Source: Tubulanus polymorphus | Taxonomy: Eukaryota > Nemertea > Palaeonemertea > Tubulaniformes > Tubulanidae | Assembly (NCBI RefSeq): GCF_964204645.1 | Contig: NC_134034.1 | Coordinates: 10,411,414 to 10,475,413, forward strand | Reading direction: 5' to 3' | DNA: 64,000 nucleotides | Shown here: in pieces, positions 26,020 to 63,031 of the stretch | Layout: each line of letters starts with the position of its first letter | Numbering within the stretch: the stretch's first letter is position 1 | Made by a program: the position numbers and the translations under genes | Notes under the pieces: model-generated | What the model saw: only the letters and a program-made list of their open reading frames with translations | What the model was told of the DNA's origin: nothing | The model's database searches: none

Positions 26020-26970
26020 TTACTCTCAAGTCAAGTGATCCGACTTGAGCGGAGTCTACTGTACCATCCAATTTAGATATCACTCTCAAGTCAAAAGATC
26101 CGTTTTGAGCGGAGTCTACTGTACCATCCAACTCAGCACTCTCAGGTCAAAAGATCAGACTTGTGCGGAGTCTACTGTACCATCTAACTCAGATATCACT
26201 CTCAAGTCAAAAGATCTGACTTGAGCGGAGTCTACTGTATCATACAACTCAGATATCACTCTCATGTCAAAAGATCAGACTTGAGCGGAGTCTACTGTAC
26301 CATCCAACTCGGATATCACTGTCAAGTCAAAAGATCAGACTTGAGCGGAGTCTACTGTATCATCAAACTCAGATATCACTCTCAAGTCAAAAGATCAGAC
26401 TTGAGCGGAGTCTACTGTATCATCCAACTCAGCACTCTCAGGTCAAAAGATCTGACTTGAGCGGAGTCTACTGTACCATCCTACTCAGATATCACTCTCC
26501 AGTCAGAAGATCTGACTTGAGCGGAGTCTACTGTATCATCCAACTCAGATATCACTCTCAAGTCAAAAGATCTGACTTGAGCGGAGTCTACTGTACCATC
26601 CAACTCAGATATCACTCTCCAGTCAGAAGATCTGACTTGAGCGGAGTCTACTGTATCATCCAACTCAGATATCACTCTCAAGGCAAAAGATCTGACTTGA
26701 GCGGAGTCTACTGTACCATCCTACTCAGATATCACTCTCAGGTCAAAAGATCAGACTTGAGCGGAGTCTATTGTATCATCCAACTCAGATATCACTGTCA
26801 AGTCAAAAGATCAGACTTGAGCGGAGTCTACTGTATCATCCAACTCAAATATCACTCTCCAGTCAGAAGATCTGACTTGAGCGGAGTCTACTGTACCATC
26901 AAACTCAGATATCGCTCTCAGGTCAAAAGATCAGACCTGAGCGGAGTCTTCTGGGACCATCCAACTATAT
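26020..26970 (+). repeat. 60-bp tandem repeat array, about 15-16 copies
   Basis: The unit is GATATCACTCTCAAGTCAAA AGATCTGACTTGAGCGGAGT CTACTGTACCATCCAACTCA. Because 60 is divisible by three, the array creates 79- and 217-codon open frames with a 20-residue period (SGVYCTIQLRYHSQVKRSDL). Two units have lost the ATAT segment. No signal peptide, promoter or splice context supports coding. Confidence 0.92.
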
Positions 26971-27184
26971 ATATATCCAAACAAAAATCCAATGACACTA
27001 AGATTTACGTCATAACTCATTTACACGTATATACATTTAACTCGTTCGCCCGGCGCCTACTCAAATATAATTTTTATCTCAAATCAAATCAAGGAAACCT
27101 GCGCAGATAGATATATATATGTACGCATGAGACGCACGTTAACGAGATAACCGATGAGTTACCTATAAATAGACGTCCTCTGTA

Positions 27185-42734: not shown

Positions 42735-43400
42735 GTTTTGAATACGAATACGAATACGAATATTTATTACACTCGACCAACCATTCCCATGGTATATGGA
42801 GGAGAAAACAATATTTACAATTATCTACAAAAACAGTAGATAAAAGCACTTTGGAACATAACAAACGTTATTTACAACATACTATTTGCACATACTACCG
42901 GAGGGATCTATATACATCTAGACCTAATTTGATAAATTTAGCTACGTTAAAAGTTGGATTTATTAAAACATCAAGGTTCCGAAAGGTATTTGAATTTAGG
43001 TAGCTTTCACGGAATTCGGTAAGCAATTTACAGTCAAAAATGAAATGTAGTTCGTCGCCTAAAACGTTACAGGTGGGGCATAATCTATCGGTTCTCGGTA
43101 GATGGAGGTTTGACAATTTATTTACAGGTAAAAGATAAAATCCAATCCTGAACTGGAATACACTGGTCACTGAGTCGTCATCAAGTCGATTTATATAGTT
43201 TTCAAATTTAATATCCTTTTTATATTGTCTAAAATTAATGTAAAACGGGTTATTATTTAGCCTAAATTCTGTCTCTTGCACATGATGATCACGGAGTATA
43301 CGGTGTAATTGTTTTACTGATTCAACACTAGCGCCACCTGGCGGAACCTCCTGGCGATATTCCGTATATTCCGGAATACAGTTATTCGAAAACAAATGTC
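42735..43400 (-). pseudogene. Non-LTR retrotransposon 3' end with CCHC motif
   Basis: An open frame of 166 codons (43395 down to 42895) contains CPTC-x7-H-x4-C, the zinc-knuckle-like C-terminal motif of several LINE ORF2 proteins, after RTDRL. It is followed on the minus strand by a 3' UTR and ends in tandem ATTCGT units (42738-42762). Microsatellite-like tails are known for CR1, L2 and I-type LINEs. The RT domain is missing, so this is a 5'-truncated copy. No frameshift in the remaining part, so it may be fairly young. Confidence 0.7.
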
Positions 43401-45973: not shown

Positions 45974-46147
45974 ATGAGGCAGGATGCCTTACGGACCTCC
46001 AGATCAGAACGAAATCGCCGCCATGCAGCGACCGGAAGACGACATGTCCGACGCTTCCGGTATTGTGAGCCTCGTTCTCGAGGCGTTGATGGTGTTCGCG
46101 AATATTTTCCCGATAATGGTCGTGTGTCGATGGAAGAAACCACGTGA
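45974..46147 (+). promoter_or_regulatory. Upstream ORF overlapping the GPCR start
   Basis: An ATG at 45974 opens a 57-codon frame that overlaps the receptor start at 45984 in another phase and ends at TGA 46145-46147. If the 5' leader includes it, it would reduce initiation at the receptor start unless leaky scanning occurs. Its context (ACACAATGAGG) is moderate; the receptor ATG (AGGATGCC) lacks a purine at -3 if counted strictly, with G at -3 marginal. Confidence 0.4.
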
Positions 46148-49100
46148 CCGCCTGTCGACCGACGAGATCATAGTTGCGTTGAGTATCGCCGATATCCTGT
46201 CGGTGATCGTGCCCACGCCGCTAGGGTTGATCTCGTTTTTCAGCCGACGATGGTACGGCGGTTTCGAAACGTGCGCATTCTATCAGTTAACTCTAGCCTG
46301 GTTTCAACTGGCGTCGATGAGTCTGATCACCTACATGTGCATAGACCGTCTGCTGACCGTCAGACTGGCGCTCAGTCATCGCGTCGTACTACCCGGACCG
46401 TACAAAATCAAAATCATCATCTTGCTCATCTATCTGATCACGTTGTTTTTCGCGTGTATGCCCCTGATGGGTCTGGCGCCTAGACTACTGTCGAAGTCCG
46501 GGCGGGTCTGTCAATCTTGGATCGTAGCCACGCCCAGTATGTCGAAAGAACACACTTTTTATATCGTTTTTGTAACGTTAGGATTCGCTAATTTACTCGC
46601 TGTTATCTTTACCAACTTCAGAGTAATTTGGATTTTAAGACTGTTCATTAAAGGTAGGTACAACTCGAAGCCTTAAAAGGCCTTGGGGTCAGATGCATAG
46701 TGCTACGATCTGACCACCAGTCTAAGACTATCTAAGTTCTAGATTCCAAGCTAACAACTTAAGACCAGTCTTAGTAGTTGATGCTACTTTTGTGACTTCA
46801 GCCACGTCTGTACGACACTGGGCCTTATAGAACATGACTTCAGATCATCAAGATCCACAGCCAGTCGCATTTCGAGTCGTACACATTGTAATTAATTTAC
46901 ATGACAGATACAAGTGATCTCTAAAAATCGTCATTTTGTTAAATTTTTGTAAGTTTTGTTTCAGAATATTACACGGTATAACACAGTATTACAAAATTAA
47001 CAGCAATAACAAAATAAAATTGAATTAGAGTAAAATTGGAGAGAAAAAAATCAACATTATCAAAGTTCTTAATATAAACGTATGCGGGTTCTAGAATGAA
47101 ATAGAATAGTTCATTTCTCTCCAAACATTGTACCATAGAGGTTACTTTGTCGAGTGACCTGCGCCCTCTATCGGGAAGTATATCGAACAACGATGACGTC
47201 ACGTACGCCTGTTCCCCGTAATCGATCTTACCAAAAAGTACCGGAAACGGAAGTAAATTCTGATTTATTTACCGAACGATTCCGTTATATCATCAATCCA
47301 CGACGGCGATCCCCACGAGAGAATTGATACCGAATCGCTCAGAGTGCTCTGTAAAGGTTCGGCTCTCGTTTCATTCGTTCTCTCGTTCTCTCGCGCGAAT
47401 CAACGTTATTTACACTTGCTTGCCGTGGCACGGGTTGAATATTTGCATTCATCTCGATTTGCACTCGGCGAAGCGAGAAATGAAGTCAGTCAGTCGCTCG
47501 GAGAATATTCCATCTCGGCATTCAATGTAAACCGTGTAGATATATATACACGATCATTTATACGCGAAATGGGGATATAAAAAGATGTACTTTACGAAAC
47601 CGCGTGCACCGGCGACTGCGTTACGATCGATAGGTCGCAGGTTCGAGTCCCATAACTACGAAACTGGATGAAATACATCGGTACGCCAGACTGGCTCATT
47701 CATCCATGGTTGGGCAACGGTGCGGCGAGGATAAAATCTTGAAAAGGCGAGCTGGCGTGATCTAGCGTTCGGAAGATATTCACAACTGACAATGACTATA
47801 GTTTACGACTATAAGTTGATGACTAGTTAATCAAAGTAGCTGATCCTTCCTCGAGTTCTGAATCTCACAGAAACCGCATGAGAACATGTACCAGGATTCA
47901 GTTCCACAGTTGCGAGCTTTTGCAAGTTAAAATTCAAAGATTTTCACGAGTTAATCATAAGTCGAATCCTCGCTTAGGACCCGCTGTTCTACAGTTGTGA
48001 GTCAGAGCTAACTACTGAATTTAGTTTACTTTCATTGAGTTAACTCTGAGTTAAGATTAGGTCTTTTTCAATAAGTTACCTCATAGTTGAAATTATTTTA
48101 TATTCATTGGGTTAACTGAATTGAAATTATTTCATTTTCAACGAGTTGAATCTGAATTGAAATAAGTTCATTGCGATGAGTTAAATCTGAGTCAAATCTC
48201 AACTGTGTGGAAGTGGATACAAAGTTGGAGTTGAAATAAGTCGATTTCGAGCGGGTAACCTCGGAGTCGAATCTCAGAACAACGCCGCGGAACTGATTTA
48301 TCAAAGTTGAATAACCCTCGACAAACTTTGAAACCTCGCTACACTGTACCCTCGCCTGCCAGGGGTCCGGTAACGCTCTCGAACTCGCTTCAACCTTTTG
48401 GGGAACGGCTTTGGCTTAGTGAGTTCGAATCCCTTGACGGGTGAAGATGGCTATATTGAAGCCCCAGTAAAATCGCACTTAGCACGGGACACATTACATA
48501 CAACTCTCATGGGTATAAAACTATAAAACATAAACGCGCATTTTAAGCACGTAAAACATCCGGCGCTATGTATAACTAAGACGGGTTGCCGGGTTACCGT
48601 CTGCGCCACCAACTGCGGCACGTTTTCACTTTGTTTTCGATGTAACAACCCATCAACGATTAATTGTTTCTGCGATCCAGCGAATGACGATCCGCTGATG
48701 TAGCCTTTGATGTCGTTGAATTCGTTAGTAACGAAATGAACTGCTCTTTTTCCTTTTTTTTCTAAATTTCATTCTCCTTCTTCGTTTCGTTTTTTTTTTT
48801 TTAGGAATTGAAATGCCTGGGGAGAAAAGTAGCATGAAAATCTCGAGCGTTTCGGTCGATAGGAAAACTGTTGTTGACTGCACGAAAATGGTCATAACGA
48901 TAACAGTTGTAGCCTATCTAGCCTGGCTTCCAGCTTTAGTAAGTAATTCTATTCTGGGTTTGAATAACGTATAACAAATGATGCGTGGTATCGAATATTC
49001 CAATGAAACATTTGTAGCCGAATTAAACCCAACGGAATTTTTTTTCAAAAATGGTTAAGGCACTTAATGAACTAAACGCATTTGCCCCACAAAAAAGTAA

Positions 49101-50967
49101 GAATTGGTCCCTCAGAATAGACAAGAACAGACACGATATGATGGACCCTTGGTAAACACCCTCTCCTTATTGGTTCGGAACGGCATGAGAGGACAATAAA
49201 ATTTCTGGACCCCCTTCACTTCGTCAGACAGAGTACTCATAGACCCCCTGCTGAAAATGAGTACTCATATCCCCCCTGCTTAACCCCCTCCCCTCACAGC
49301 TGAGATAGGAGAGCAGCGAGTAGAACAGACACATTGGTTCTAAGTGAACCACTCTCCTCACAGCTGTGGTTCTGAGAGCATGTAGTTAGTAAAACAGGTA
49401 CAATAGGCTATTGGTGAACCTCCTCTAGCGCAGCATAGCCGGGTACACTTTTGAAATATGCCTGGAAACGTATAATTTGTGGAATATTCGGCTTTTTGCA
49501 GGTGATGATTCTACTGCTGAGGTTACCAGTACAAGGAGAGATCTCAATCCCAGCCGTCCTCTACGCTATGTCCAGTACGACCTTGACCGGTCTGTTCAAC
49601 CCGATCATTTACGGCATTTTCTCCGCCTCGTATCGTAACGGTTATCGAGGGGTCGTCCGAAGTTTCTTCCATCTTCTCTGCGGATGTCGTCGCGAGGACT
49701 TCGACATGATCGACGGTGAGTGTATGCCGCGCCTGTTATCGGCATCCTCGCTAACCAGCGTTTGATTGCCGATTTCTTTCGCGGACAGGTTCCCACTCAG
49801 CGCCCACCAGTCTATATGTCTAGCCAATCAGATGCTGTGGAATTTATAGAATAGGATAGGATAGGATAGGATTGTAAATTTCTATTGCGCCTTGTAAATA
49901 GCAGGACTATTATCAAAGGCGCTCTCCAGACGAAGATGATGACTTGAACAGAAATGTCTTGAGCTGTGCTTTGAATGCTGGCAGAGAGTCAATATCACGG
50001 AGAGGTTGCGGAAGGGTTAGAAGTTTATAGAGCAAACTTGCCGGTAAAAACAATGGGCTGATTGACTATGAATATAGACTGGTGGGTGCTGAGCGTTAAC
50101 CTGTCTGCCCAAGAAATTTTGATAGAATCCGATAGAATATAAAGTCCCCTCAATGTTTCTCTCAATCCTCCCAAGCCTTGAAATGAACCCGCTAAACCTG
50201 GCTTCACCAAGAACCTTAGTGTCTGGTGGGTACACTAGGATCGCAGAGCGACGGAGATCACTGTGGAGACAGCCACACTACAGGACTGAACTTCTGGCCT
50301 GAATATATCCGCTAACTGTAAAGCTGTTATGAAGTGTATTATGAGGCTTCGAAATATCATTTCAGATGTTACAACTCGCGCCAGGCGAATGAGATCCGCC
50401 GAAAATACGAGTGTAAGCAGTCGGTCGCTAGGTGGCGTTATGAGTCCATCCGGTACACTGACGTCTAGCAGCAGCGCACACGTGCGCGAAATCCTATTGG
50501 TCGACGATCAGCAGGACGAGTATCAACCGGTAGCCAATCAGATGATGAGCTTCAACAGTCAGTACAGCTCGCTGTACGCCGCTAACGGGCGAAATGCCGG
50601 ATCGTTTCAAAATAAACCGAAAATATCAGGCGGCGGTGTACACGTTGAAAGCGCAATCGAGGAAGAAGCACAGGATTCGGTGGAGAATTCGCCCCTGACG
50701 CCGAGGCGATTCGCAAAATTCAGCAAATTTCAACACTACATATTCAGCCAGAAGCGTTCCAAGTACAACAATGCGAATAATAGACGGCGCCACCATCGAG
50801 AGATCGAGTCGAATTCGAGTCTGTTGACGTGTACGTCAGACGATGACGAGGCTAGCGATGATATGAGTTACGATAGCGACGGCGTAGACGGCTGTACCGA
50901 CAAAAAACCGAATCGTAACGGAAAATTTTCTAGCGACAATATTCAAATAGAAGAGAGCGAAATATGA
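45984..50967 (+). CDS. Class A (rhodopsin-like) GPCR, orphan, prostanoid-receptor-like
   Basis: Exons 45984-46653, 48805-48938, 49502-49715 and 50366-50967 join in phase to 539 residues. Seven membrane segments are visible: TM1 near 26-48; TM2 with ALSIADILS; TM3 starting after FETC and ending CIDRLLTV (DRL for DRY); TM4; an ECL2 cysteine in GRVCQSW; TM5; TM6 with LAWLPAL (CWxP variant) in exon 2; TM7 with NPIIY in exon 3. The last exon adds a 200-residue Ser/Asp-rich tail. TM2, TM3 and ECL2 recall prostanoid receptors, but the prostanoid TM7 arginine position holds Ser and DPWVY is replaced by NPIIY, so the ligand is unknown. Candidate polyadenylation signal ATTAAA at 51652. Reading through the exon 3 donor gives a shorter form ending LTSV at 49765. 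Confidence 0.88.
46690..46790 (+). repeat. 47-bp repeat family, fragment in GPCR intron 1
   Basis: GACCACCAGTCTAAGAC and GCTAACAACTTAAGACCAGTC, about two degraded units. Confidence 0.6.
47885..48300. repeat. 45-bp satellite relatives in GPCR intron 1
   Basis: Repeated GAGTTAACTCTGAGTTAA, CAGTTCCACAGTTG and GGAACTGATT-type blocks; degenerate and of mixed orientation, as at 34910-35110. Confidence 0.65.
48348..48449 (+). mobile_element. Short SINE-like element, copy 1
   Basis: About 102 bp: CCCTCGCCTGCCAGGGGTCC to GAGTTCGAATCCCTTGACGG GTGAAGATG. Matches 51791-51893 (inverted) and the outer parts of 58301-58625. Flanks GCTACACTG and GCTATATTG look like a decayed target duplication. Lies 355 bp before GPCR exon 2. 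Confidence 0.65.
49768..50240. mobile_element. Retroelement tail in GPCR intron 3, inverted pair
   Basis: On the minus strand 50240-49850 reads toward LTLPQPLRDIDSLPAFKAQL and FLFKSS, the end of a LINE-type RT, then ACAAGGCGCAATAGAAATTT and CCTAT units. The segment 49768-49845 (GACAGGTTCCCACTCAGCGC, CCACCAGTCTATA) is an inverted copy of 50040-50119, and 52636-52680 is a third copy. The interpretation as a LINE 3' end rests on the short RT-like peptide. Confidence 0.6.
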
Positions 50968-50989: not shown

Positions 50990-51380
50990 CTCCAAACCAG
51001 AGTTGTGAATCCCGAGGTGGGTTCCCGGGGTTCGAACTCAAAGTTGTGTTGGTTAAATCTGATTCTGTTCCCAGTTCCGAAGTTATGTCTGGTTGCAATT
51101 TGAGCCCGGACCCAGTTCCACAGTTGTGTGGGTTTAATATTGCTCTGCCCCAGTTTTACAGTTGTGTGGGCTTAGTTTTACCCCGAACCCAGTTCTACAG
51201 TTGTGTGGGGTTAATTTGACTGTGAACCCAGTTCCTCAGTTGTGTAGTTTTGATTTGGCTCTGGAACCAGTTCCACAGTTGTGTGGGTCTAATTTGACTC
51301 TGGATCCAGTTCCACAGTTGTGTAGTTGTGATTTGGCTCTGGAACCAGTTCCACAGTTGTGTGGGTTTAATTTGTAACGT
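50990..51380 (+). repeat. 45-bp satellite in the GPCR 3' region
   Basis: Eight or nine units of CCAGTTCCACAGTTGTGTGG and TTTAATTTGACTCTGG begin 20-30 bp after the receptor stop. If the 3' UTR extends to 51652, the satellite is transcribed. Confidence 0.85.
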
Positions 51381-51744: not shown

Positions 51745-52330
51745 AGGCAAAATCGAAATCACCGCCGGCAGACGACGCACTGTGAACCGTATCTTCACCC
51801 GCCAAGGGATTCGAACCCACTACGCTAAAGCTGTTCCCCGGACTGGTGGAAGCGAGTTCGGGAGTGATACCGGACCCCTGGCAAGCGAGGACGTGTGAAC
51901 CGTTAAATTGGAAAAATTAAACGAATGCCTCGGTGCGGGTCATGACGTGTCGGAGATTATTCGACCGAATATCAGAAATCATTTAGAATTTGCCTCGTAA
52001 TGCTCGACCTCTCTGCAGCGACCGATTCATCTATGACAAAGCCAAACGGATTTGTAACATGAACGCGACTCCTATTTTGCATGAAAGTGATATGCGCAAG
52101 GCCCGTCTTCACTCTGCAGAAGGTTAGCAATAACGATGGATTAAACTATAAACATCAAATTCCTTTTTCTGTTTGGGTGCTTAAATTGTCAATTCAAAGT
52201 ATATCTCATTAAGTGGTGAGTATCATACGTAAAGCAGAGTTTTTTTTATTCTCACTCACTTGGTTGTGTTCGTTTTCGTCCGTAACGAACTGCTATGGGT
52301 ATCGCCTGGCACGAGTATTCCAGAGAAGCG
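51745..52330 (+). pseudogene. Broken copy of the six-cysteine secreted gene
   Basis: Corresponds to 54050-54560, including 3' flanking DNA (TCATACGTAAAGCAG). It keeps ECLG-, IIRPNIR- and CDRFIYDKAKRICNM-like coding stretches. It lacks the signal-peptide start, has a stop at the second-cysteine region (GCCTCGTAATGC) and a changed Cys codon (GAATTTGCC), and is interrupted by the 103-bp element 51791-51893. Evidence for tandem duplication followed by decay. Confidence 0.8.
51791..51893 (-). mobile_element. 103-bp SINE-like insertion with 10-bp TSD
   Basis: Exactly bounded by TGTGAACCGT at 51781-51790 and 51894-51903 and absent from the paralogue at 54008-54340, so insertion is directly demonstrated. 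On the minus strand it ends TAGCGTAGTGGGTTCGAATC CCTTGGCGGGTGAAGAT: an A-box-like TAGCGTAGTGG directly abuts a B-box-like GGTTCGAATCC. No poly-A tail. Confidence 0.85.
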
Positions 52331-53003
52331 TACACATTCGATTCGCTGTGCAATTTTTAATTTCAGTATTATTGATTTCACGGAAAAGAGCGGAACAATT
52401 AAAATCAGAAACAAAATTTCAAAAACATTAACAACAAATTTACAAAAATTTTGTAGCGCGCTTGTCCGCGTGGGCTTTGCAAAGCCTTGTAGGCCGCTAG
52501 CACAGACACCTAATTAAAGAGAAAGGGTTAAGAAAGAGGTGACAGGAGAGAAAATGAAAAAATAGATGAGCTCGTTTCCACGCCCACACAACCCAGGGCG
52601 CAGTTCCTTCATTGGTTTATTACACCACCACCAAAGATTTCTTCGGCGAGCAGATTGCCACTCGGCGGCCACCAGGCATTTCCGGTGTAGCTATCAAAGT
52701 TAAAAGTAGTGACAACAATACATCTGGAAAAAGGAGGCCTACTGCAAAGGGTTAATATTTTTTAAAAAAACAGAAAGAGCCTAGATACTAATTAGGGATG
52801 AGTGATTTTCTTAATCTATGTCGTGTGGCTTTATTTCAATTCTGATTGCATAATAGAAAAAAAAACCCAGTACCTTCTGGGTTGACTTTAAAAAAAAAAG
52901 CTAAATGGTGACGTCACTGCACCGTTTCTATGAAACAGTAAGGCAGGCAAAGAGAGACACCTTTGACGGGTGTAGTCATCATATTTCTCGATAACGGACA
53001 AAA

Positions 53004-53390
53004 ATGGCGCATATTTTGTATAACTCGTATTTCGTCTTATCGATGATCGTCTTGTTCGGCTACAACGGCCGGGGAATTTTCGGCAAACTGGTTTTAACGG
53101 AGAGCGACTTCACACGTGGGTATGTGACGAACAAATTCGTGTACGCCGGCACTTGCCAATCGACCATCACCGGGTTGCTGACGGTTATACCCGCAGTGAG
53201 AAGCCACGTAGAGTGCGCTAAATTCTGCGTTCAACTAGGCGAACGTTGCCGATACAAACTCTACAATCCGGTCGATAAGAGGTGTAGGATAATCTCGCCA
53301 GATGGCGTTAGTCAAAATTGTCAAGGCGTCATTTCCGTTTCCGGTAAACGCCTGTATGTGAAGATTGACAATCGAGGATTATCTAGTTAA
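53004..53390 (+). CDS. Secreted six-cysteine PAN/apple-like protein A
   Basis: 128 residues, intronless. Hydrophobic N-terminus (about 1-26, LSMIVLFG) is a likely signal peptide. Cysteines follow C-x19-C-x3-C-x6-C-x11-C-x11-C, with VRSHVECAKFC at the second and third. The S-x-x-ECA-x-x-C core resembles PAN/apple modules, which bind proteins or carbohydrates; exact function is unknown. Start context AAAATGG is strong. AATAAA at 53468 follows the stop by 78 bases. The 3' flank has three GGCACCACCTACC-containing repeats, similar to those after protein C. First intact member of a cluster with 54008-54340 and 56032-56349. Confidence 0.75.
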   Translation: MAHILYNSYFVLSMIVLFGYNGRGIFGKLVLTESDFTRGYVTNKFVYAGTCQSTITGLLTVIPAVRSHVECAKFCVQLGERCRYKLYNPVDKRCRIISPDGVSQNCQGVISVSGKRLYVKIDNRGLSS

Positions 53391-53467
53391 TGATCACAAC
53401 GAACTATAGGTGGCACTAGAGTAACTGATCCGTTTTCGTTGAACGTTGGAATTGCAAATGGCCAAGG

Positions 53468-53473
53468 AATAAA
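53468..53473 (+). promoter_or_regulatory. Polyadenylation signal of protein A gene
   Basis: AATAAA 78 bases after the TAA stop, in AAGGAATAAACTATTC. Confidence 0.55.
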
Positions 53474-53574
53474 CTATTCGCAATTTAAGGAATATCAAGA
53501 TATCAAAAATATCAAGACAAAACAACCATAACAAAGTGATAAAATGTGATAAATCTATACTGGATCCCCAAGAA

Positions 53575-53690
53575 ATGAAGTTATAGCGGCACCACCTACA
53601 CCTGCGGAATAAACTGGCACCACCTACCGACGAAATGAACTAGTTATAATAGAACTCTGGCACCACCTACCCACGAAATGAAACCTACAA
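53575..53690 (+). repeat. GGCACCACCTACC direct repeats
   Basis: Three imperfect units of about 40 bp with CGAAATGAA-type linkers. The same motif appears at 56445-56465 after protein C, supporting shared ancestry of the 3' flanks. Confidence 0.7.
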
Positions 53691-54007
53691 CTGTAACCTC
53701 TCGGTTATGATCGTCTCTCCATAGAAGATGAAGAAAATCCTGGTATTGCATTTTTCATTATTAATGAAATTATGATGTCTGTGTCTTCAGGGGCTCAATT
53801 CAAGCGGCAGGATTATCAAAACAAACTAATCAAGTATTCCCACGGTGGAAAATGCGTAAAGATATCAGTAAGACGCTCGCTTCAAAGCATAACGGAGTTT
53901 TTTATGATAAACAGAACACTCGAGATTTTGAAAAAGAAAATCTACCCTTTCAGATTGGAAGGGTTTTCGACACACGACGGACGGTGTGGTGAACCAGATA
54001 CAAAAGG

Positions 54008-54340
54008 ATGTTGCTCGGTGTCGCGCTAGTCGTGTGCGCCACGTTCGCACACAGTTCATCTACGAAATCACCGCCAGCAGACGGCGCATCGCGAACCGAT
54101 AAATTCGAAAAATTAAGCGAATGCCTCGGTCCGGGTCATGACGTGTCGAAGATTATTCGACCGAATATCAGAAGTCGTTTAGAATGTGCCGCGCAATGCT
54201 CGAAACTGCCCTCTCTCTGCGACCGATTCATCTACGACAAAGCCAAACGGATTTGTAACATGTACCGACCGGATGTCGGTATGAACGTGATATGCGTTCC
54301 GCTCGTCTCTGTTCTGAAGAAAGTTGGCACGACTAGATGA
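54008..54340 (+). CDS. Secreted six-cysteine PAN/apple-like protein B
   Basis: 110 residues, intronless. Signal peptide about 1-15 (MLLGVALVVCATFA). Mature part has C-x20-C-x3-C-x6-C-x11-C-x12-C, with IRSRLECAAQC at the centre. The spacing equals that of proteins A and C, although sequence between cysteines is little conserved. The upstream 230 bases are open in another frame without meaning I can see. Candidate ATTAAA at 54443. A decayed duplicate lies at 51745-52330. Likely extracellular; partner unknown. Confidence 0.75.
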   Translation: MLLGVALVVCATFAHSSSTKSPPADGASRTDKFEKLSECLGPGHDVSKIIRPNIRSRLECAAQCSKLPSLCDRFIYDKAKRICNMYRPDVGMNVICVPLVSVLKKVGTTR

Positions 54341-54442
54341 ATCGAACTATCGAAATTGTATTACTATCATAATCACTGATCAAATCTTTTCCCGCTGTTT
54401 GAGCGTGTTTTTCAATTCGAAGTTAGATACGTCGTTTATCTC

Positions 54443-54448
54443 ATTAAA
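54443..54448 (+). promoter_or_regulatory. Candidate polyadenylation signal of protein B gene
   Basis: ATTAAA 103 bases after the stop. Retained (CATTAAGTGG, altered) in the pseudogene flank near 52207. Confidence 0.35.
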
Positions 54449-55399
54449 ATGGTAAGTTTCATACGTAAAGCAGGTTTTTGTTTTCTCTGTTGATGTTTGT
54501 TCGATTTTTGCGATGGGAATCCCCTAGCATGAGTACAGGTATTCCAAAAGCCTTTTGCTTTAACCCAAAAATGCTGAATCGTAGAAATTACGTTGCGTCG
54601 AAACGCCGCCCCGCTGGTCACGTGATCAAGTAACCAAGACGACGACCAGCTAATTTACATAACAATTGCACCTCCGCCGTTTTCAATTTCACCATTATAT
54701 TTAAATGTTGTATGACGTACTCGGGCTAGCGTGTAGGAACTAATCCTAATTAGCTATGTTCAAACTAGTAAGCCCGAAGGAATGCTGTAGACAAAAGGAG
54801 ATCTTATTAGGATATGATTTTTAATGAATATGACACATGAGCTGTGTTCCAACTAGCCCGAGGGGTTGAGACACAAAAACGACCCATTACAAGGACATAA
54901 TCTTTCATGAAGATTTAACATGATGTGCGTTCAACTAAAAAGGGATGTTTCAGAGAATTGGCGTAAAGGCAATTCTGCGGATAAATACCAAAGATGAGCT
55001 ATCGATCCGCCAGGTGTCACACTAGTGGTTATTTGTTTTGCATTTGCACTCATCACTATCAACTAATCGACTAATTTGATCATTTTCGGATTTGGAAGCC
55101 TTAAAATCGAGTTCAAATTTCGTTAAAAATGAACTGATTTTCACTCCGAATGAACCGGGGTGTTGTTGCACCATCTTCTGGTGGTGCCGGTATCCCATTC
55201 AACGGAAACTCCCGAAAGAAAACTCATCGGAAAACTTTAAAGCTTTTGAATTTAAACTTTCTTTATGTATCAATTTTAATATTTTTCATTTTCCCGTGGA
55301 ATTTCAGGGCAACTTGCCATTTTTGGGGTAAAACGCCCCCTGCACTCTCCCCTTGGTTCGCCCTGCCTACTATGGTTAAAGGGGATTCCACTTGTTGCG

Positions 55400-55615
55400 A
55401 GTGAGGATCCACCAGGTGTCGCTAGTGTACAGTAGGACATCGACTACTGCGGCAGTAAGGGATTTAAGTGAGGATCCACCAGGTGTCGCTTGTGTACAGT
55501 AGGACATCGACTACTGCGACAATAGATGATTCCATTTATGGCAAGTGAGGATCCACCAGGTGTCACTAATGTGCGGTAGGACATCGACTCAAACTGCGCT
55601 TACAGATGATTCATC
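55400..55615 (+). repeat. Three tandem repeats of about 75 bp
   Basis: Units start AGTGAGGATCCACCAGGTGT CGCTAGTG and contain GTAGGACATCGACTACTGCG. A related GGCGGATCCTCACCTGCCAT block lies inside the 3694-4200 element in inverted order. Confidence 0.8.
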
Positions 55616-56031
55616 TTGAAATTCATGAAGATAAGCGATACCGACATCACTGGCGCGTTATCGTACAGACTATACGGAACTGGCTAAAGATAAAACGACT
55701 GAAGATCATTTGTCACTGACGCGAACCAGCAGAATTTACATCTTTTATATGAACAGCACCGTTTCGAATTTCTATATTTGGTTTCAAACGGTATTGGTTA
55801 GAAATACAGGACTCGAGGGTTACGTGTAGGAATTAATCCCGATTAGTGCTTCGTTTAACTGGTCCCCGAGGTATTAAGAATCTGACGCGTAAACCAATTC
55901 GGAAAGTCTCTTTTTTATGCAGCGAAATAAAAGAACCGAAAAATACGCGAAGGAAGAAGATATAAAACGATTAGGGAAGAGTTAAATCGTCATTGTATCG
56001 TGTATCTGCAGTCGCCTAAGATCGTCAAAAA

Positions 56032-56349
56032 ATGATGCGTTTTTGGAATGTGTATATCGTTCTGTCGGCTGTGAGTCAGATTGTGATAGGCCTGAAGTCT
56101 GGCGACGGTGGGTTCGCCGAGGCCAGGTACAGCTTTACGTACACGTGTAGACGTGCTACTGACGGCAAACTGTTGAAGGTTGTACACGATGTTAGAAGCC
56201 GCCTCGAATGCGCTCATTTGTGCACTCAGCAAGGTGTAAGATGCCAATATATGGATTATAGTTCCACCCGTGGAAGTGATTGTATGTTTTACTCGCCAGG
56301 TGGCGCGAGTCGATATTGCAAATCGGGAAGCCAGTACTATCGAGAATAA
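56032..56349 (+). CDS. Secreted six-cysteine PAN/apple-like protein C
   Basis: 105 residues, intronless. N-terminal hydrophobic segment (about 1-21, WNVYIVLSAVSQIVIGL) is a likely signal peptide; either of two adjacent ATGs could start it. Cysteines: C-x20-C-x3-C-x6-C-x12-C-x11-C, with VRSRLECAHLC at the centre. YSPGGAS before the last cysteine parallels ISPDGVS in protein A, so A and C may be closer to each other than to B. No polyadenylation signal close by. Confidence 0.75.
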   Translation: MMRFWNVYIVLSAVSQIVIGLKSGDGGFAEARYSFTYTCRRATDGKLLKVVHDVRSRLECAHLCTQQGVRCQYMDYSSTRGSDCMFYSPGGASRYCKSGSQYYRE

Positions 56350-57907
56350 TCGTAATCGTTAACGAGGTTCGTGATCGGCTGTAACCAACGAGGAATCCAG
56401 CCCAATAATTGACGCCACCTATCGGGATTTAGCGCATATTGGCGGCACCACCTACCGAAGAAAATAGCAGGACTCGAACCCGCTTGTTCTGATCTTGGTT
56501 GCCCGTGAACCCTATTGGATTATTCATTAACCTTACAACGGGACCGCGACCTTTGCAGTTTTGCCCGCGCACTGTAAGCAGCTGCCAGGTGGACTGGAAC
56601 CCGGATGTCACTGAACACTTTATACTGAGCTGCCGTTAGTGAATGCAACAGCATCACATTTTTATGCCGCTGAACTAACCGAGGTCATCGGGCATTCATA
56701 GGCGTCCCCAAGGGGGTGCGGGGTAGCGGACGCACCCCCTTTTCGAGATAGCTAACTTCTCAAGTTACTATGTAATCAATGTTCAAGATTTTTCTTGCCA
56801 ATTTGACTAGTCTTTTAACTCTAAATGATTCATTTAGAGCCTGGAAAACGTCTCTAAAGCCTCCAATTTTCAAAAAGTTTTTTGGGGGAGGCCCACCAAA
56901 CACCAGACATTGTGCTTGGATGCCGAATGGATGCTATTCGAACCGCCTATGAAAATTCCTGGGGACGCCTATGGTATTAACGAACAGATCGCACCCGACT
57001 GGTTAAATCGAATAGAATTGATATCCCTGTCTAATTATCTTTTCTATCCAGATGAAATCCTGGTTTCGGGCATGTATTTTCAATGTGCAGAATAAAAGCA
57101 TATCATCAGGGTGTAGAATGAATGATGATTAGTGGGATTATTAGCAACCTTTGAATACAATAGAGATACGTCATCGTAGCGCCAGGAACGTAATCTCTGG
57201 TGAGTTTGAATCCCACTTAATATCAAAAACTATCACAGAGATTTAAGAATTTGAAGAATTCTATTTAGAGGATAGTTTTTTGTAGTTTATGACTCGTCAA
57301 ACTTTTCATTTTTCCCCGTCAAAACTGAACATCAAATTTACTCGTTATATTATTCTTCATCAAATTTACTTTGTCAGTTCTACGTCAAATGCTCGGCGCA
57401 TTTGATGAGAAATCGGAACTCGGCTATGTTGTTAAAATCAAATCGCCAAAAAACCCAAAAATATCAAATCGCCAGCGTAGATATACTGTCAAACCTGAAT
57501 ATCCATTTGACGCGTCAAAATCGGCATCAAAATTAAGAATTCATTTATGACAGTCGCCAGTCAAAGTTTCCTATTTAAATCGATGTCAAATATCGTTTTT
57601 ACTCGTGGAAAGACGTATTTAGGACTGGGCATTTACTCATCAAATAACGTATTCGGACTGAAATCCGGAATGTCGGTCCGATTACGTCATATAACTCGAA
57701 AATGATGAGTCCAAGTAGGCCTACGTGTTTTAACGGGAAAACATGGTGGTTGTTCTTGTTGACAGTATCCACGATACTAAGATATGGACGTAGATGTAAG
57801 AATTATATGTTCGTATTTATTCGTCGAACGTGTAAGTAATAAAGTTGAATTTTCACAGTATGTCTATGCAGTGATGAAATATTTTGCTAAACTCACACTG
57901 CGTAGCT

Positions 57908-61349: not shown

Positions 61350-63031
61350 TCACACAACAGAACAATAGCTACATGTTCGTTTACTGCTGTCCGTATGAGT
61401 ACCACCGACCGTCACTCCGTTTCTGCCGTCCGTCTCCCACAAACCTGGCGTCTGAATTATCTGTCAATTGAAACGAGAGTATTTAGTTTATCAGTTTGCT
61501 GAGAATTGCAGTAGACTTTGTCCCTTACTGCGGTAAAGTTGAATCTAGTAAAATTCTCATAAGTTGAGTCACTGTCAAATAATAAGTAAGAGTTTGTGAA
61601 ATACAGTAGATTCTGTCTCTTACTACTGCAGAGTTGGGACTGGTAAAATTCTACCCAGAGTTGGTATCAAATACTGAGTAAGAGTTTGTGAACTACAGTA
61701 GACTCTGTCTCTTACTGCCGCAGAGTTGAGACTGGTAAAATTCTACCCAGAGTTGGTATCAAATACTGAGTAAGAGTTTGTGAAATACAGTAGATTCTGT
61801 CTCTTACTGCCGCAGAGTTGAGACTGGTAAAATTCTACCTCGAGTAGGTGTCAAATACTGAGTAAGAGTTTGTGAACTACAGACCCTGTCTCTTACTGTG
61901 GTAAAGTTGTGGTAAAATTGTGATTGTGAGTTGTGGTAAAATTCTACCCTGAGTTGGTGTCAAATACTGAGTAAAAGTTTGTGAAATACAAAAGACTGTC
62001 TCTTACTGCAGTAAAGTTGAGACTACTCCGAGTAGGTTTCAAATTCTGGATAAAAATCGTACTCACTTTTTCGACAAGTTCCTCAAACGCGCACTGAACG
62101 CCTTCTTTAGTTTTCGCGCTCGCTTCGATAAATAAACATTGGTGTTTTCTGGCGAATTTCAACCCTTCGTCGCGGGATACCTCTCTTTTATCCTGCAACG
62201 AAAACATCATTCCTTCTAACTCGATTTAACATAACATAGAACTCTCTGTTTATAACGAACAGATATTCCAGTGCCCTGAAGATCGTTGTTCTGCCATATA
62301 TAAGGCGCTTTTACGAAACTGAATCTTTGTAAATCGATTTAAGTTTCACGTTTACGGCACGCGGTTTAGTGAATCCGATTTGGTAAATCGACGTGTTTGT
62401 GGAAACGGTTTAGTAAATTAATTTACTAAATCGACTAACTTGCTCGCCGAGCAAGTTAGTGGCGATTTAGTCAGCTAAATCCAACATGGCGTCCTCTTCG
62501 ACCGCGGGCTAAAGACATCTATTGCAGACCATCATCTATCAATAATTCGGTCACAATTGACGCCCATTTTCTTTTGAATCGCGACCTTTAAATCGATAAA
62601 TTGATTCGATTCATTTACGAAAAATAATTCGATTTACTAATCCTTTTGGTTTCCGACATCGAATTGGATTTAGCTAAACCGAATCAGATTCAATTTCGTA
62701 AAAGCGCCTATAGAAATATTAATTATAACGAACAGATTTTCTGGTGCCCTGAAGAAACGTACAGGGTGTAGCCCTGGACCTACCGTCACTTTTTTCAGTA
62801 AAGCTAAATTTGACTCAAAAGCGGAAATGTATCTATTCTAATTTTTACTAGTCTCCAACTGGGACGTAGCCCGTATATTTTTCAATTCGAAGGTGGTCCA
62901 CTTCATACTTACGCTATCTATTTTATTGCCGACTAACATTTTAATGATATCGTGTTTCGTGGAGAATGTTTCTAACTCGCTGAGCCACGCCTCTAATTTC
63001 TGGAACGTCTGTTTACTAGTTACATCATACA
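61350..63031 (-). CDS. RAB18: RAB18 small GTPase, 3' three exons (partial)
   Basis: Ras-superfamily GTPase linked in other animals to ER, lipid droplets and membrane traffic. Exons on the minus strand: 63031-62913, 62192-62067 and 61460-61350, phases 2, 0 and 0. They encode VYDVTSKQTF...MLVGNKIDS, then DKREVSRDEGLKFARKH...FIEASAKTKEGVQCAFEELVEK, then IIQTPGLWE...CSYCSVV-stop. NKID (G4) and EASAK (G5) are intact, and IIQTPGLWE is what I know from vertebrate RAB18. The end CSVV is a CaaX-type prenylation site with a second Cys three residues earlier. G1-G3 (P-loop, switch regions) are missing and must lie beyond 64000. The two introns hold a 92-bp satellite and a MITE. AATAAA (minus) at 60804-60799 is a possible polyadenylation signal. 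Confidence 0.93.
61503..62040 (+). repeat. 92-bp satellite, locus in RAB18 intron
   Basis: About five to six units with GAGTAAGAGTTTGTGAAATA, TCTGTCTCTTACTGC and TTGAGACTGGTAAAATTCTAC. It fills almost the whole intron between the last two exons: 42 bp from the last exon and about 27 bp from the preceding donor. Confidence 0.9.
62303..62709. mobile_element. 407-bp MITE with 23-bp TIRs in RAB18 intron
   Basis: Left AGGCGCTTTTACGAAACTGA ATC and right GATTCAATTTCGTAAAAGCG CCT agree at 22 of 23 positions. The interior also has inverted symmetry (GTTTAGTAAATTAATTTACTAAATC, ACTTGCTCGCCGAGCAAGT). Flanking TA suggests a Tc1/mariner-type target, not proven. No ORF. Confidence 0.8.

Follow-up and report, generated by a model that had tools for sequence, protein, structure and literature searches.

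We describe here a small local tandem cluster of three intact PAN genes, designated A, B, and C, and one pseudogene in a 64-kb window of the Tubulanus polymorphus genome (the whole stretch of DNA analyzed, contig C10:10411414-10475413; the host genome spans 267.8 Mb in 77 contigs). The explanation that we favor, with a probability of roughly 0.6, is a tandem cluster of stand-alone, single-coding-exon genes for secreted PAN-module proteins, which would release a small extracellular binder. The four copies are as follows:

51754..52129, + strand: pseudogene of B, with similarity at 51754-51789 and 51897-52129 and a dispersed repeat between; stops, indels, and a lost core cysteine
53004..53390, + strand: gene A, 128 residues, putatively secreted, single PAN module, cysteine spacing 19/3/6/11/11, PAN_1 score 24.0 bits
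54008..54340, + strand: gene B, 110 residues, putatively secreted, single PAN module, cysteine spacing 20/3/6/11/12, PAN_1 score 26.2 bits
56032..56349, + strand: gene C, 105 residues, putatively secreted, single PAN module, cysteine spacing 20/3/6/12/11, PAN_1 score 15.6 bits

A, B, and C are intact ATG-to-stop frames that each harbor all six module cysteines (C1 to C6) and are preceded by an in-frame stop 9-15 nt upstream of the ATG; B carries an additional cysteine in its leader. A preliminary description of this DNA had claimed three intact six-cysteine genes with these spacings, and we confirm this: the pattern occurs three times in the six-frame translation of the window and not once in 200 windows simulated with a first-order Markov model. 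The R-S-x-x-E-C-A-x-x-C core reported there is likewise common to all three proteins, and its proposal of a signal peptide is supported by hydrophobic leaders, with best eight-residue Kyte–Doolittle means of 3.05 (A), 3.17 (B), and 2.58 (C). Strong divergence between the cysteines, also noted earlier, is evident from the low identity to A, which is 25% in B and 35% in C.

Domain identity and cysteine spacing

The assignment of a PAN-type module is borne out by the Pfam family PAN_1 (PF00024; gathering cut-off of 21.4 bits), which A and B match above the cut-off and C below it. PAN_1 is the sole Pfam family near its cut-off in these proteins, the only other match being DUF3273 for A (E 0.16), and a search of NCBIfam gave no match. 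All three conform to the four-cysteine PAN core C-x3-C-x(5-9)-C-x(about 11)-C, with x3, x6, and x11/12. A profile built from A, B, and C and searched against PDB sequences retrieves PAN-bearing chains first, namely a Kelch domain-containing protein (6ryv, E 1.1e-6), HGF (3hmr, 3.5e-4; other HGF entries weaker), and then factor XI (from 0.045), followed by microneme proteins (0.29 and 1.7) and two TNF-receptor entries (0.39-0.47), the latter taken for chance matches. Single-sequence PDB searches are weak: the top match is the Kelch protein for A (0.044) and for C (0.26), whereas it is HGF for B (0.12), and the matches of B and C are mixed with unrelated proteins. Membership in the WSC family was considered and rejected, since the WSC profile (PF01822) gives no match for A, B, or C (limit E 10, with filters that drop most matches above ~0.1) and the modules contain six cysteines rather than the eight of WSC.

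To place the array among the PAN domains of the same genome, we compared it with the best-scoring 70 of at least 102 PAN_1 matches found genome-wide at E ≤ 0.001 (150 of 214 candidates scored), a set in which divergent stand-alone genes are perhaps under-represented and which includes near-identical copies, so that the counts are not independent. A four-cysteine core of the same kind is found in 66 of these 70 loci, and spacing was counted on those 66, leaving out the four that lack the core pattern. The C3–C4 loop spans five residues in 41 of the 66, seven in 22, and six in only three, and is six residues long in each of A, B, and C. C6 follows C5 by just 11-12 residues in the array; among the 66, the commonest distance is 26 (15 loci), with 25-27 in 21 and 9-14 in eight. 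The nearest spacing belongs to locus L027 (20/3/5/11/11), with L059, L088, and L093 similar; comparably short spacing is found elsewhere in this genome.

Kinship, gene boundaries, and divergence

Whole-genome searches with the individual proteins link A and C at E 8e-8 and 6.5e-8 and B and the pseudogene at 4.5e-10, and both can be taken as certain pairs. Outside the array, the searches with A, B, and C return only four places, at E 0.06-0.35, and no further close copies of any of the three. On this basis a large lineage expansion was rejected, and the many lineage-specific paralogues anticipated in the preliminary description were not seen. In a small pairwise set, with E-values calculated without composition correction, B matches A at 9e-8. 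The 3'-flanks of A and C share a short motif that has just 11 exact copies in the genome, three of them in the array (two after A and one after C):

53588..53671, + strand: three GGCACCACCTACC copies, the first with one mismatch, 3' of A
56444..56456, + strand: GGCACCACCTACC copy 3' of C, in common with the flank of A

This rare shared motif adds evidence for a common origin of A and C.

Whether the coding sequence ends with the module bears directly on gene structure, as A, B, and C might instead each open a larger mosaic gene in which other domains follow the leader and PAN and the apparent stop is intronic. We regard this as unlikely. We scored splice donors with an assumed, untrained matrix. 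In A, B, and C the scan started at C5 and ended 60 nt beyond the stop codon; in the other loci it started 60 nt ahead of the point where the domain match ends and continued as far as the stop. A leader and PAN share one frame in 20 of the 70 comparison loci, and in each of these 20 a donor-like site scoring 5.7-11.4 lies close to the end of the domain (≥6 in 15 of the 20); the 3' part of A contains a weak donor-like CCG/GTAAAC (5.1) that exceeds the 95th percentile of GT sites in the window (4.7). These points speak for the first-exon reading. The best 3' sites of A (5.1), B (4.2), and C (4.8), all around that percentile, are nevertheless weaker than those of the 20 loci, A and B are separated by a mere 617 nt, and the alignment of A with C extends past C6 through a common S-G-x-x-Y end that lies beyond the possible donor in A. 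Furthermore, no credible Pfam domain was found in the 11 frames tested of the 36 plus-strand frames of ≥38 residues between C and the Rab18-like exon downstream. The weaker donors, the A–C alignment past C6, and the absence of a credible domain from those 11 frames favor, if by a narrow margin, stand-alone genes whose coding part would end with the module and have no good splice donor behind it. The term “intronless,” used previously, finds support in the coding part only; a 5'-untranslated region intron is possible in B because an acceptor-like sequence, read by eye, lies near 53791.

Candidate expression signals flank the frames:

53468..53473, + strand: AATAAA polyadenylation-type signal, 78 nt past the stop of A
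55961..55967, + strand: TATAAAA box-like site, 71 nt upstream of the ATG of C

An ATTAAA is found 103 nt past the stop of B; in the stretches scanned, no TATA-like site was found for A or B and no polyadenylation-type signal for C. That the array is relic coding sequence, with every copy decaying or untranscribed, is highly improbable: one of the four copies is clearly dead, but three frames run intact from Met to stop with six cysteines each, and the TATA-like box 5' of C and the signals 3' of A and B argue against decay.

Several observations weigh against reading A, B, and C as one cluster of stand-alone PAN genes. The PAN_1 score of C falls below the cut-off (15.6 versus 21.4 bits), yet C is the nearest relative of A. 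The whole-genome searches connect A and B only at E 0.05-0.06 and do not find B–C, and in the small pairwise set four other loci (L022, L060, L038, and L066; 1e-6 to 7e-5) match B better than C does (6e-4). In a tree, from which four identical rows of 73 were left out, A and C pair at 92/90, under the 95/80 mark of strong support for the tool, while B is unplaced and a group uniting all three appears in 28% of the bootstrap trees. As for gene structure, a donor of ≥6 is reached by 45 of the 70 PAN loci and is absent from the other 25, and the donor margin is narrow (5.1 versus 5.7), with scan ranges that differ somewhat and an untrained matrix. By sequence, B is only weakly related to A and C, and its kinship to them is indicated mainly by spacing and position; B shares with them the rare six-residue C3–C4 loop and the neighborhood. 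We conclude that A, B, C, and the pseudogene probably constitute one family.

The low identity between cysteines raises the question of how the copies diverged. For A versus C, nonsynonymous divergence (dN) is 0.60 and synonymous divergence (dS) about 1.5, which is near saturation, and their ratio is below 1; dN is 0.82 for A–B and 0.75 for B–C, with dS beyond measure for both pairs. Within the limits of a near-saturated dS, these values suggest that selection on A and C has been conserving overall. Positive selection is not supported by the A–C ratio, near-saturated as its dS is, and apart from low identity nothing supports the earlier description of the family as fast-evolving. These data also bear on the proposal that diversifying selection acts on the genes because their products serve in reproduction or defence, e.g., in gamete recognition, seminal fluid, or antimicrobial activity. 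Such proteins would be small, putatively secreted, cysteine-rich, tandemly arranged, and of low identity between cysteines, as found here, but given the A–C ratio, the unmeasurable dS of the other two pairs, and the absence of an expansion outside the array, we consider this proposal rather unlikely.

Pseudogene, repeats, and locus setting

The copy previously called a pseudogene is confirmed as a broken duplicate of B, ~2.2 kb away; its main gapped block matches B at 199 of 240 positions, and ungapped stretches of 111 nt and 47 nt are 91% and 96% identical, respectively. It is disrupted by in-frame stops, the loss of one core cysteine, indels, and the insertion of a dispersed repeat. In the first ungapped block, the sites that differ from B number 4/5/1 at codon positions 1, 2, and 3, a distribution consistent with a copy that is not under selection, although the numbers are small. 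Similarity resumes further 3' (52202-52253 versus 54437-54487); therefore, flanking DNA was copied along with the gene. The gene order would fit a single duplication of a two-gene block (pseudogene–A and B–C), which we rejected because A and C are far more diverged than B and the pseudogene and because the flanks share short pieces only.

51791..51891, strand not assigned: dispersed repeat of ~101 bp within the pseudogene, with a short direct repeat, GTGAACCG, on both sides (51782-51789 and 51895-51902)

This repeat occurs in at least 45 places genome-wide, the present one included (40 of 1514 first-look candidates scored). It carries GGATTCGAACCC, which we take to resemble a tRNA B-box, and is like a short interspersed nuclear element, without an Rfam or tRNA match; scans of the whole 64-kb window for Rfam families and tRNAs gave no matches.

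The array is flanked on the left by a rhodopsin-type G protein-coupled receptor exon (7tm_1, 45978-46673, + strand) and on the right by a Rab18-like exon of the Ras family (61947-62225, − strand; top PDB match Rab-18, 2.4e-16). A further sequence, CCRCCAGGTGKCGCTAG, a CTCF-like motif, is strongly enriched: it is found 20 times in the window with ≤4 mismatches, compared with 0-3 times in 10 simulated windows, and has 784 exact copies genome-wide compared with none for the reversed pattern. Its sites include 55409-55571, 43328 (− strand), and 41857 (− strand), as well as 53295 in gene A and 56293 in gene C, and three copies belong to a tandem repeat of 67/77 bp located between B and C. On another contig (C6:1063838-1738352), 14 listed exact copies are all on the minus strand, with six of 13 gaps at 31-35 kb and two near 67 and 100 kb, a pattern that points to a large array of tandem units, each about 33 kb long. 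Other features of the window are a 39-bp tandem repeat with five overlapping 108-nt copies (51111-51374), just 3' of a long frame (50290-50967); a 167-residue frame (42898-43398, − strand) with a terminal C-x2-C...H...C and no Pfam match at E 0.1, whose end we take to resemble a retrotransposon reverse transcriptase tail; and a minisatellite-like repeat (26188-27110) whose translation consists of repeated QVKRSDLSGVYCIIQLRYHS-type units.

Putative fold, role, and comparison with known PAN systems

In the apple domains of factor XI and prekallikrein, the C1–C6 bridge joins the ends of the module, and C6 lies about 26 residues after C5, a distance that A, B, and C do not reproduce. The leader of each array protein would be cleaved and the free module released, folded as a helix packed on a sheet of five strands and held by C2–C5 and C3–C4 bridges as in PAN cores, for which two or three bridges formed by four to six cysteines are described (PMC9249922). 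C1 and C6 would form a third bridge tying the first strand to the loop that precedes the final strand, comparable to C27–C86 of the WSC variant, in which two core bridges hold the helix and C27–C86 ties strand 1 to loop 5 (PMC9024836). Because C6 follows so soon after C5, a strand-1 to loop-5 bridge appears more likely from the sequence than an end-to-end one, and the C1–C6 pair would then not join the module ends, unlike in blood-factor apple domains.

PAN domains are held to mediate protein–protein or protein–carbohydrate binding, according to two reports (PMC9249922, PMC9024836). A free module would most plausibly bind one extracellular protein or glycan and serve as an adhesive or as a matrix or mucus component; alternatively, it might compete in soluble form with the numerous mosaic PAN proteins that this animal also has. 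A more far-reaching idea, quite unlikely in our judgment, is that the array is the founder of a separate class of free PAN modules, defined by the six-residue C3–C4 loop, the strand-1/loop-5 disulfide, and the single coding exon, that arose when a leader–PAN exon detached from a mosaic gene and that now competes in soluble form with the animal's own membrane or matrix PAN proteins. If true, this would provide a simple natural test of one PAN module alone, which is hard to obtain with mosaic PAN proteins; if false, the result is the ordinary annotation of a small family. We prefer the account of stand-alone secreted modules, in which the array provides a compact illustration of a widely shuffled extracellular module that is apparently free, single-exon, secreted, and tandemly duplicating.

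Among known systems, the closest by spacing are L027, L059, L088, and L093 of the same genome, in which C1 precedes C2 by 17-22 residues and C6 follows C5 by 9-13, as in the array, whereas the C3–C4 loop has five residues rather than six. L027, L059, and L093 also possess a leader like those of A, B, and C, but close to the end of the domain they carry donor-like sites scoring 7.5, 8.6, and 10.4, respectively, and so look like exons of larger genes. The PAN_1/apple domains of HGF and factor XI share with the array the C-x3-C helix with an E-C-A type motif and the C2–C5 and C3–C4 core positions; the array modules differ in standing alone and in the short distance from C5 to C6. The leech anti-platelet protein (LAPP) consists of a single PAN module. 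It was not among the PDB sequence matches of A, B, C, or their profile, and the likeness is one of description. LAPP is described as a secreted, collagen-binding PAN-domain protein (PMC7191736), like the putatively secreted proteins of the array, although it is a salivary protein of a blood feeder, and the earlier remark that no described stand-alone family with this spacing was known fails as far as architecture is concerned. WSC domains combine the PAN fold with an additional strand-1/loop-5 disulfide, a possible model for C1–C6 of the array (PMC9024836), and differ from it in their eight cysteines and a CGG motif. Among the papers listed in searches of the open-licence literature on PAN proteins, we found no description of the array, or of its spacing as a stand-alone family. 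LAPP, as described in PMC7191736, shows that secreted PAN-domain proteins can act as binders. A, B, and C are most likely stand-alone secreted binding modules built in the same way. The cluster is a further case of a known kind of gene rather than a new system, slightly unusual in its loop length and gene structure.

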